Shown here: positions 55,423-58,699 of the stretch, piece after piece
Position numbering within the stretch: position 1 is the first letter of the stretch
Layout of the letters: each line of letters starts with the position of its first letter
Origin: Limnothrix sp. FACHB-406
GTDB taxonomy: Bacteria > Cyanobacteriota > Cyanobacteriia > CACIAM-69d
Assembly (NCBI RefSeq): GCF_014698235.1
Contig: NZ_JACJSP010000012.1
Span: forward strand, 62,001-126,000
DNA length: 64,000 bases
Direction: 5' to 3'
The notes under the pieces: model-generated
Seen by the model: the letters and a program-made list of their open reading frames with translations, nothing else
Told to the model about the DNA's origin: nothing
Database searches by the model: none
Made by a program: the position numbers and the translations under genes

Positions 55423-55953
55423 GTGAATTTGCCCACTTGGATCACCGTGTCGCGGTTGGCAGCAGTGCCCCTATTGTTGTGGTGGCTCAGCGGCGAACCC
55501 ACCACAGCCGATCGCTGGTGGGCATTGGGTGTGTTTCTGTTGGCGGCGGGCACAGACTGGCTGGATGGATACTTGGCCCGCAAGCTGAACCAAGTGACAG
55601 ACTTGGGCAAATTTTTGGATCCGTTGGTCGATAAGTTGCTGGTTTTGGCTCCCTTGCTTCTGTTGGTGGAGCTGGGGCGGATTCCGGCTTGGGGCGTTTT
55701 TGTGATTTTGGCGCGGGAGCTGACGATCGCCGGTTGGCGCGTGAACCAAACCAGCATTTCGGGGGCAAACCTCTGGGGCAAACTGAAAACCGTCAGCCAA
55801 ATCGCCGCGATCGCCCTGTTGTTAGCCCCAGTGATGGATGCTTACTCCCTTTGGGCGATCGGTCTCTTTTGGGTCTCTGTGGCCCTAACCATAATCTCCG
55901 GCGCAATTTATCTCATTCCGGTCGGTAAACAGAGCGTTGAATCCGGTTCTTAG
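55423..55953 (+). CDS. pgsA: CDP-diacylglycerol-glycerol-3-phosphate 3-phosphatidyltransferase
   Basis: 176 residues from GTG 55423 with GGAG at 55411-55414. It is an integral membrane CDP-alcohol phosphatidyltransferase that makes phosphatidylglycerol phosphate, the committed step to phosphatidylglycerol, which is essential in thylakoids. The signature DG-x2-AR-x8-G-x3-D-x3-D is intact: DGYLARKLNQVTDLGKFLDP followed by LVDK. N-terminal LPTWITVSRLAAVPLLLWWL and C-terminal LKTVSQIAAIALLL are typical. Six hydrophobic helices. An AT-rich hairpin after the stop probably ends the transcript. Confidence 0.94.
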   Translation: MNLPTWITVSRLAAVPLLLWWLSGEPTTADRWWALGVFLLAAGTDWLDGYLARKLNQVTDLGKFLDPLVDKLLVLAPLLLLVELGRIPAWGVFVILARELTIAGWRVNQTSISGANLWGKLKTVSQIAAIALLLAPVMDAYSLWAIGLFWVSVALTIISGAIYLIPVGKQSVESGS

Positions 55954-55968
55954 ATCACGTCTTTCTTG

Positions 55969-55989
55969 ATTTTTCTCACACAGAAAAAT
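55969..55989. terminator. Bidirectional AT-rich hairpin between pgsA and the convergent operon
   Basis: ATTTTTCT (55969-55976) pairs with AGAAAAAT (55982-55989) around CACAC. It has T-runs in either direction. It lies between the stops of pgsA (55953) and the minus-strand operon (56034). Confidence 0.55.
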
Positions 55990-56033
55990 ATTAGAATTGA
56001 CGTTGACATGCGCGGCCATATCTTAGCGATCGC

Positions 56034-56531
56034 CTAATCGTCGTTGCTGGTGCTGCTGAAGCCAACCGCTAGGGAACCGATCGCCAATTGCAGAGAACGC
56101 GCCACCCACAAAGGCATCGGCACTGAATCTCCGGTGCGGCGGTTGTGCCAGCCAATGACCTCTTTCTCCCCGGACTGTGACCACCATGAAAGGGGTGTTT
56201 TTAGAACATCAGGAGCCTTGGGCGACTGGATGGCTAGCCAAGCGTGATAGTCGCTGACTTGGTTGGCCATCCAGGCGAGAAAGAACCCCCAAATGCTGAT
56301 TGAGATTGCACCTAAACCCCAAAGCCCAAACCGTCTCAGGAGTGACCCATTCACAACGGCCAGGATTGCAATCAACACAAATCCGGTGACATAGGGATCG
56401 AGAACATCAAAAATTGCACCCACCAACGGGTGAAACGATGGATGATGCACCAGACGGCGCAGCCAGGCCACAAGCAGGCCGATCGCATAGTTGACCACAG
56501 ACACAGCCAAAAATCCAGTCAGTCCTTGCAT
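56034..56531 (-). CDS. Membrane protein, paralog of the next gene, unknown function
   Basis: 165 residues. Three or four hydrophobic segments at about 8-24, 45-62, 69-92 and 141-158. After the third comes SDYHAWLAIQSPKAPDVLKT, then PLSWWSQSGEKEV, and a C-terminal hydrophobic stretch SLQLAIGSLAVGFSSTSNDD. The gene upstream has the same order: a membrane bundle, DYRRWLSAQPPTKPADL, LLAWWSQASNEE, and a hydrophobic stretch ending QYDD. They are paralogs. I do not recognise the family. The start ATG 56531 has no clear ribosome site, which suggests translational coupling to the gene 49 bp upstream. It is the last gene of a three-gene operon. Confidence 0.65.
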   Translation of the reverse strand: MQGLTGFLAVSVVNYAIGLLVAWLRRLVHHPSFHPLVGAIFDVLDPYVTGFVLIAILAVVNGSLLRRFGLWGLGAISISIWGFFLAWMANQVSDYHAWLAIQSPKAPDVLKTPLSWWSQSGEKEVIGWHNRRTGDSVPMPLWVARSLQLAIGSLAVGFSSTSNDD

Positions 56532-56580
56532 AACTATTCAGGGGGTAAGCTTTCGTAGGGAACATCATTACGGCGATCGA

Positions 56581-57057
56581 TTAGTCGTCGTACTGCTTGC
56601 CGATTGCCCCTCCTACAACAAAGCTGACAATGCCCCATTGCAATCCCAAGTCCAGCCACCGGGGAAGGCCAACCGTGCCACGGCGACGACTGCGGCTTTG
56701 GATTTCTTCGTTGCTGGCTTGCGACCACCAGGCGAGTAGTGTGGTGAGGTCTGCGGGCTTGGTGGGCGGCTGGGCTGAGAGCCAGCGCCGATAGTCGTGG
56801 GTCAGTTCGCCCAGGACGCAGGTGAAGACGGCTAAAAGTCCGAGGGCGATCGCTGCCCGGCGCTCCATCCAAAAAAAACTCGCCAGGAGTCCACATCCAG
56901 CCGCGATGCTCAGCAGCCAAACAAAGATGGTGAGTATGTAGAATCCTCCCCCCCAGGCGGGGTCACTGGCGATTAGAGCGGCTTTGATTGCAGCCCAGCC
57001 CCAGCCGATCGCCCCACCCATTGCGGCCCAAGCGAAAAACGCAACGATTCCCCGCAT
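56581..57057 (-). CDS. Membrane protein, paralog of the preceding entry, unknown function
   Basis: 158 residues. Hydrophobic segments at about 4-25, 40-60 and 67-85, and a final one at about 133-153. The conserved block DYRRWLSAQPPTKPADLTTL followed by LAWWSQASNEE matches the downstream paralog. The ATG at 57055-57057 directly adjoins the TAG of the upstream gene (no gap), so the two are probably translationally coupled; GGGGGA just before the start is a possible ribosome site. No catalytic motif. The pair could form a heteromeric membrane complex, which is inference from paralogy. Confidence 0.65.
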   Translation of the reverse strand: MRGIVAFFAWAAMGGAIGWGWAAIKAALIASDPAWGGGFYILTIFVWLLSIAAGCGLLASFFWMERRAAIALGLLAVFTCVLGELTHDYRRWLSAQPPTKPADLTTLLAWWSQASNEEIQSRSRRRGTVGLPRWLDLGLQWGIVSFVVGGAIGKQYDD

Positions 57058-57441
57058 CTATTCCCCCAGGGCCTTCAGCAGGTCGATCGCGGATGACTCA
57101 GGCGCTGGTGACTCGGTGGCGGGACGCACGATCGGTGTGGTGATGCACTCACTTCGCGAAAAATCCACGTCATTGTGGCAAATCCTGACCATCACAAATC
57201 CATCCCCGTCATTTTCGGGATCGTAGACCCCATAGCGAATCCACCCGCAGTCAGGGATGAGCGTGTCTAGCAGCTCAAAGGCTTGCTGTTTCAAATTTTC
57301 TAGGCGCTCTTCGGTTTCTGGTGATGGGTTTTCTTCGTCTAGGGATAGCCACTCAGCGGCCATCTCGCCAACCAATTCCTTGACTCGCCGCCAGCCCTTA
57401 CGGCGAGCTTCCTTGAGTTCTGTCAGCACTAAGTCTTCCAT
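57058..57441 (-). CDS. Small acidic soluble protein, first gene of the three-gene operon
   Basis: 127 residues from ATG 57441; an upstream reading to 57489 starts poorly. The N-terminal half is helical and highly charged (KEARRKGWRRVKELVGEM and then SPETEERLENLKQQAFELL). The second half begins DTLIPDCGWIRYGVYDPEND and continues GFVMVRICHNDVDFSRSE, a beta-like segment, then a Thr/Ser/Pro-rich tail. No membrane helix or signal peptide. I do not recognise it. Its position directly coupled to two paralogous membrane proteins suggests it is their cytoplasmic partner. A terminator for upstream transcription lies at 57505-57546. Confidence 0.6.
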   Translation of the reverse strand: MEDLVLTELKEARRKGWRRVKELVGEMAAEWLSLDEENPSPETEERLENLKQQAFELLDTLIPDCGWIRYGVYDPENDGDGFVMVRICHNDVDFSRSECITTPIVRPATESPAPESSAIDLLKALGE

Positions 57442-57504
57442 TGCCGTCACCGTTGATGCTGCCGAGACTCTACAGCCCAGTGTGAGCACTGATGGCGATC
57501 GAAG

Positions 57505-57650: not shown

Positions 57651-57800
57651 CTAGCTGTTTTGCATCCCCTCAATCATCTTAATCACCCGCTGCATCTCGG
57701 TTTGTAAACCGGTAATCTGGCTTTGCAGCGGCTCGACTGTTTGGGCGATCGCCTGCTGAATGCCATGGTCGATCGCCGCCAGGATTGAATAGGAATTCAG
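57651..57800 (-). pseudogene. Short in-frame ORF without a start, probable remnant
   Basis: Reading the minus strand from 57800 gives 49 codons to a TAG at 57651-57653. The peptide includes ILAAIDHGIQQAIAQTVEPL, then QSQITGLQTEMQRVIKMIEG, a good amphipathic coiled-coil. There is no ATG, GTG or TTG at its head; it lies in the same frame, just after the stop of the 57810-58544 gene, and in the same transcript. It looks like the 3' piece of a broken gene, or an unusual short protein with a non-standard start. Confidence 0.4.
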
Positions 57801-57809
57801 GCTAGAAAA

Positions 57810-58544
57810 CTAGAGATAGCGAGAAATTTTAATTTTGCTGACCTTGTTGATGGGTTCTGCACTCTCCCAATAAAAACAGAAAATCACTAGATAAGGAAGA
57901 ATAGCAATAACATTAGTCAGCACCGTAGCAATTACATGGATGATAAAACTTTCTTCCAGTCCCATGAATCCAGAAGGAATGTAAATTGCCACAGAAGCAA
58001 TACCCATAAGCAGAATTGTAACTAAAACGCTCAATACCGTAGTTCCAGCAATTCTCCATCGCCTTCCTTGAGTTAACTGGGTGCTGCGCTGTCTAGCCTG
58101 AGAGCCAGTGGTTCCTTCCAAAACAACAACTGGATCTACTAGTGCAAAGCGCAATGCTAAAATCACACCGGGAATAATAAATAAAACTGTTCCTCCCAAA
58201 ATAATTAAATTTGTCGTTATACTCGTCGCAAGCATCTTAAAGCTCCTACGAAAGGCATAGGTCATCGCTTGTTGGTAGCTGACGGCCAATCCTTTTTGGA
58301 ATTGAGATGCTCCATAGAATAATCCGCCAATGTAGATTGGCTTGACAATAAACTCAATGGTGCTTGAGAGACGCATTGAGTATTTTAGAAAACTCATCTC
58401 ATCACCATTAGCCCATTCTGGAAAAACATAGAAGTCAAAATAGCTGCAAATGAGCGAGCCTGGTAGCCAGACCGTGAGAACAATAGCACTAAATAGTTTG
58501 ATGTTAGACTTGAATAGATTCACAGCCTCTGTAATTTTATTCAT
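57810..58544 (-). CDS. Polytopic membrane protein of lower GC content, unknown function
   Basis: 244 residues with about five hydrophobic helices (around 17-33, 64-80, 104-131, 160-183 and 200-228). LIILGGTVLFIIPGVILALR followed by FALVDPVVVLEGTTG resembles the glycerophosphoryl-diester phosphodiesterase membrane-domain/YciC-like family, and QARQRSTQLTQGRRWRIAGT is the usual following loop. Codon use is clearly more AT-rich than adjacent chromosomal genes, which suggests acquisition from elsewhere. The start is ATG 58544 in an AT-rich context. Function unknown; the similarity is by pattern only. Confidence 0.65.
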   Translation of the reverse strand: MNKITEAVNLFKSNIKLFSAIVLTVWLPGSLICSYFDFYVFPEWANGDEMSFLKYSMRLSSTIEFIVKPIYIGGLFYGASQFQKGLAVSYQQAMTYAFRRSFKMLATSITTNLIILGGTVLFIIPGVILALRFALVDPVVVLEGTTGSQARQRSTQLTQGRRWRIAGTTVLSVLVTILLMGIASVAIYIPSGFMGLEESFIIHVIATVLTNVIAILPYLVIFCFYWESAEPINKVSKIKISRYL

Positions 58545-58699
58545 TGAATTGATTCCGCCTAACTTTGCGACTTATTAGCCTGACGCAGAATGTGATACTT
58601 GAATAAGGTGTTCTTTCTTAAAGCTTGGATTCAAACTTAAGTTTTTCACACTTTATTCAGCATCCATCGATATCGTCAAGTATTCATGATTCAGTATTT

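Follow-up and report, generated by a model that had tools for sequence, protein, structure and literature searches.

What are three small, tightly linked genes doing between pgsA and a DUF697 GTPase gene, and how do they come to be there? They lie on the minus strand of a 64,000-nucleotide stretch of Limnothrix sp. FACHB-406 DNA, which we call the window, and an earlier note had taken them for a self-contained membrane complex. The reading that we favour, with a probability of roughly 0.45, is that they are an accessory operon, restricted to one genus, that occupies a variable slot and encodes two diverged four-helix membrane proteins together with a soluble partner.

Gene 1 (57058 to 57441) runs from an ATG to a TAG and codes for 127 amino acids, or for 143 if translation begins at an in-frame GTG at 57489. 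Gene 2 (56581 to 57057, 158 amino acids) and gene 3 (56034 to 56531, 165 amino acids) follow. The TAG of gene 1 ends at 57058 and directly adjoins the ATG of gene 2 at 57057, and 49 bp (56580 to 56532) separate genes 2 and 3. These coordinates confirm the tight packing described earlier and support a compact, operon-like arrangement. The gene 1 product has 14 lysines and arginines and 28 aspartates and glutamates among its 127 residues and no hydrophobic segment, as expected of the small, charged, soluble protein that had been proposed. Four hydrophobic segments are present in each of the other two products (residues 4-22, 41-59, 68-86 and 135-153 in gene 2; 4-22, 47-65, 68-86 and 141-159 in gene 3). 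A loop of some 50 residues joins the third segment to the fourth, and both proteins probably sit in the membrane. Charge counts favour neither side of the membrane for this loop.

A putative intrinsic terminator separates gene 1 from the sequence upstream of it. The minus-strand hairpin (57548 to 57509) folds at -22.5 kcal/mol (z = -4.3), which none of 200 shuffled sequences equals or betters, and it ends in a run of six T, so that the terminator of the earlier note stands. The hairpin, whose stem holds one internal mismatch, is absent from the list of a simple consensus scan; the same scan found no sigma-70-like promoter in the stretch from the terminator to gene 1. At the other end, gene 3 converges on pgsA (55423 to 55953, plus strand), and the AT-rich hairpin between the two gene ends (55963 to 55996) is weak and no better than shuffled sequence (z = -0.88, equalled or bettered by 35 of 200 shuffles).

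None of the three proteins could be assigned to a known family in Pfam, NCBIfam, PHROGs or PADLOC, in agreement with the failure to recognise them by eye. The best Pfam E values are 0.18 for gene 1 and 0.16 for gene 2, with no match for gene 3; the best NCBIfam match has an E value of 0.035 and 12.7 bits against a cut-off of 806; and PHROGs and PADLOC return nothing for any of the three at E values up to 1. A sequence search of the PDB gives no match to the alignment of genes 2 and 3 (A3) at E values up to 10 and a best E value of 0.25 for gene 1. Foldseek searches with low-confidence models of genes 1 and 3 likewise produced no match at or below 0.001 (best E values 0.72 and 1.1, respectively); gene 3 is poorly modelled (mean pLDDT 55, pTM 0.41). 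Among the papers listed by literature searches, none mentions the locus in its title or abstract opening.

Whether all three frames are genes has to be asked of gene 1 above all. GC3 across the operon is native-like (0.60-0.67), but codon-usage scores alone are not proof of coding because 9 of 43 spurious open reading frames of at least 100 amino acids in the window match each of the three genes. Homology supports the reality of genes 2 and 3, as described below. For gene 1 no relative was accepted among 291 and 388 sampled genomes, and its reality as a protein is therefore the weakest link. The genome samples in this work overlap, count the window's own genome and cover part of the phylum. 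Gene 1 has one weak, partial non-self match in the smaller of these two samples and two in the larger. The match in G156 (E = 8e-4) falls inside a 432-amino acid reading frame and that in G522 (E = 0.009) inside one of 755 amino acids; we took both as chance matches to helix-rich sequence. In the five nearest genomes (G001 to G005), nothing better than an E value of 0.9 was found.

These results would fit the strongest competing explanation, in which genes 2 and 3 are a true operon and gene 1 is a spurious reading frame with an indecisive codon score. Against it stand the contact between its stop codon and the start of gene 2, the position of a 127-codon frame directly behind a terminator, and a single-sequence structure model that is confident in part. 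That model (mean pLDDT 63) has helices at residues 2-32 and 41-61 with block-mean pLDDT values of 70-86, followed by a weak sheet of three strands and a low-confidence tail. The case for gene 1 is made by its position, length, packing and partly confident helical model, and we consider a spurious frame unlikely, though it is the most serious of the competitors.

The products of genes 2 and 3 are true paralogs that have diverged. BLASTP aligns them over nearly their whole length (55 bits, E = 5e-15) with 50 of 165 columns identical, for an overall identity of 30-32%, and their local alignment score of 156 is reached by none of 2000 shuffles (mean 34.7, maximum 70). The paralogy claimed earlier is therefore significant, but the similarity lies in the second half of the proteins. 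The loop and last helix score 120 against a shuffle maximum of 62, whereas the N-terminal three-helix part scores 41, no more than chance would give, since 216 of 2000 shuffles score as high.

Further comparison is possible with a gene-3 homologue in a genome of the same genus, the only clear relative found outside the window's own genome. It was located again on RDXB01000046.1 of G002, a MAG of Oscillatoriales cyanobacterium isolate PH2015_14S_56_116, and it resembles gene 3 over nearly the full length at 57-59% identity. It and the two paralogs all have the four hydrophobic segments. Genes 2 and 3 have an identity of 26% in their N-terminal parts, 39% across the loop and 37% over the last helix and tail, whereas gene 3 and its relative share 66%, 48% and 54% in the same parts. 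Gene 3 and the relative are thus most alike in the first helices, and the paralogs resemble each other most in the last helix and the loop before it. The distance of gene 2 to the other two is much the same (32% identity to gene 3 and 29% to the relative), which suggests either a duplication older than the divergence of gene 3 from the relative or faster evolution of gene 2.

Columns that are invariant in all three sequences (gene 3 numbering) include D94, Y95, W98, Q102, P104, P107, L110, W116, W117, S118, E124, R131 and R132. They yield a shared signature, DYxxW...QxPxxP...WWS...E...RR, in the loop between TM3 and TM4. The DYxxW element, the proline-rich loop, WWS and one glutamate of the motif first noticed in the paralogs are retained, but the last residue of WWSQ and one glutamate of EE vary, and the relative has WWSS in place of WWSQ.

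Beyond this relative the operon appears genus-restricted, as far as the sampled genomes reveal. Gene 2 matches 2 of 59 genomes, its own and G002. Gene 3 matches 7 of 388 genomes of the class, and the same two were accepted. Among the other five, the match in G003 is antisense to a 597-amino acid reading frame, that in G487 holds stop codons, that in G588 has no tblastn match at E values up to 1, and those in G604 and G570 were likewise not accepted. A profile search with alignment A1 matched 82 of 386 genomes of the phylum at E values up to 0.1, and only the window's own genome was accepted because the other matches have weak scores and partial coverage. Most of these cover approximately residues 13-73 within reading frames near 290 amino acids; others fall within about residues 58-125 in short frames, some of them interrupted by stops, and a few lie elsewhere. 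One rejected match (L055 in G411) is antisense inside a 592-amino acid frame; by eye, this frame resembles an MscS channel. In viral contigs no relative of gene 1 or of the gene 2/3 alignment was confirmed by tblastn at E values up to 1e-3, nor was one of gene 2 alone in the collection of genome contigs at the same limit. Gene 1 has no match in phage records. In plasmids, gene 3 has no match at E values up to 1, and genes 1 and 2 give only matches with E values of 2 to 5 (limit 10).

In G002 the gene-3 homologue stands alone, since neither gene 1 nor gene 2 was found in that genome, and in the sister species G001 (whose draft genome comprises some 100 contigs at 99% completeness) none of the three genes has a match, at the site or elsewhere. 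A three-gene order conserved across genomes, which the earlier note had proposed to look for, was therefore not found in the sampled genomes. To judge from the lone relative, gene 3 can be kept in the absence of genes 1 and 2, and an obligate three-part complex is accordingly unlikely. The proposal of a self-contained complex keeps its compact layout, paired four-segment proteins and soluble partner, but it is weakened by the lack of gene-order conservation; the three may still form a lineage-specific complex.

The site itself varies between close relatives. The pgsA and DUF697 GTPase proteins of G001 are 98% identical to those of the window, and the flanks share 90-93% DNA identity. This homology stops at 55919 inside the 3' end of pgsA, returns from 57666 to 57790, stops again and resumes at 58698; in place of the three genes G001 carries about 250 bp of sequence without detectable similarity. 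The short island is a 125-bp minus-strand 3' remnant (96% identity) of a coiled-coil gene whose complete form is present in G001. Contigs C35 and C18 from the window's own genome also carry short stretches related to this remnant. Next to it lies a minus-strand gene for a YciC-like membrane protein of the GPDPase_memb type (57810-58544; PF10110, E = 4.9e-10). At this place G001 carries a DUF29 gene and the greater part of the coiled-coil gene; the YciC-like gene itself has no match in the five nearest genomes at E values up to 1e-5. This YciC-like gene is AT-rich, with a GC3 of 0.38 compared with 0.55-0.69 in seven other genes measured; the operon, unlike it, is native-like in base composition. 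The sequence after pgsA differs among G000 (the window's own genome), G001, G002, G003 and G004, being a plastocyanin-type gene in G002, rimP (by eye) in G003 and a 304-amino acid reading frame in G004; pgsA was not found in G005. This variation is compatible with an accessory operon in a variable slot, as in the reading that we favour; the operon may have been gained in the window's genome or lost in the others.

Marks of a mobile cassette were not observed here. No recombinase was found among the scanned neighbours, no repeats of at least 14 bases bracket the operon, and no tRNA was found in the window. There is also no further copy in the window's own genome, where the two short matches fall in the coiled-coil remnant.

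The gene-3 homologue of G002 has other neighbours: a CobW-like gene (by eye) and tRNA-Cys on one side and a gene for a 642-amino acid GTPase on the other. The CobW-like and GTPase genes lie on separate contigs, C8 and C22, in the window's genome. Between G002 and G000 these two neighbours are 77% identical at the protein level, pgsA 91% and the DUF697 GTPase 87%. Because gene 3, at 57-59%, falls below all of these yardsticks, it either evolves faster or was exchanged. The stretch that precedes the G002 gene (L052:4786-5203) consists of the tRNA-Cys followed by an 89-amino acid reading frame that looks, by eye, like the terminal part of a tyrosine recombinase; a recombinase remnant at L052:4937-5203 is supported by neither Pfam, PHROGs (E = 0.07) nor the PDB, and we give it no weight. 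The nearby L052:4485-4637 matches G001 ten times (72-78%) and G000 once (77%) and is probably a dispersed repeat.

A variable site and genes that were not found in close relatives could also indicate a small module of the defence or toxin-antitoxin type in a gene-exchange hotspot, in which membrane-active paralogs would be held in check by the soluble gene 1 product. The direct coupling of a small soluble gene to a gene for a small membrane protein would fit such a module, as would the location of the lone G002 relative beyond a tRNA-Cys gene. We nevertheless think it improbable: PADLOC and PHROGs match none of the three proteins, the phage records (gene 1) and viral contigs (gene 1 and the gene 2/3 alignment) contain no match, and a gene-3 toxin in G002 would be unguarded because no gene 1 adjoins it.

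Equally improbable in our estimation is that the genes are decaying or neutral lineage-specific reading frames without present function. The very narrow distribution, the lack of accepted relatives of gene 1 and codon scores no better than those of the nine spurious frames would be expected in that case, and the signal of selection on gene 2 is unclear: its comparison with gene 3 (NG86 dN 0.70, dS 1.7) is near or at saturation for both rates and less informative. Gene 3 and its relative, however, differ mainly at third codon positions (56, 29 and 95 differences at the first, second and third positions), with a dN of 0.31 well below a saturated dS of 2.6 (dN/dS about 0.12). Gene 3 thus looks to be under purifying selection and conserved as a protein. 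The frames are also intact, and both paralogs as well as the relative have retained the four hydrophobic segments.

That the operon is an auxiliary module for the lipid gene pgsA or the adjoining GTPase is very improbable, since beyond physical nearness in the window's genome and a GTPase gene, though a different one, beside the G002 relative, pgsA (G001-G004) and the DUF697 GTPase (G001-G005) occur without adjoining operon genes, the relative and pgsA are on different contigs in G002, and pgsA is on the opposite strand to the operon.

If the genus-restricted accessory operon is the correct reading, then the products of genes 2 and 3 would each insert in the membrane with four helices and could meet through the conserved loop and last helix, while their diverged first three helices would give them separate roles. 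Gene 1, whose translation may be coupled to that of gene 2, would supply a soluble helical partner that binds or regulates both. As for physiology, our guess is that an accessory envelope or stress function is most likely. A bolder proposal is that the loop signature defines a new small four-helix membrane family, a heteromeric pair with a co-translated soluble controller that is lineage-specific and arose in one cyanobacterial genus; this is doubtful, though less so than any of the competing explanations above.

We know of no long-standing question that hinges on this operon. It shares with lineage-restricted orphan (ORFan) operons a narrow distribution, small proteins, a variable locus and the lack of a family, and it differs from typical ones in holding two diverged paralogs, a feature that most orphan genes are not known to share. 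As far as the sampled genomes show, it is a clean example of a genus-restricted operon with such a pair, placed where the sequence of close relatives is different. This combination of narrow distribution, paralogy and a differing site makes it possible to trace how an orphan membrane family was gained, duplicated and lost.
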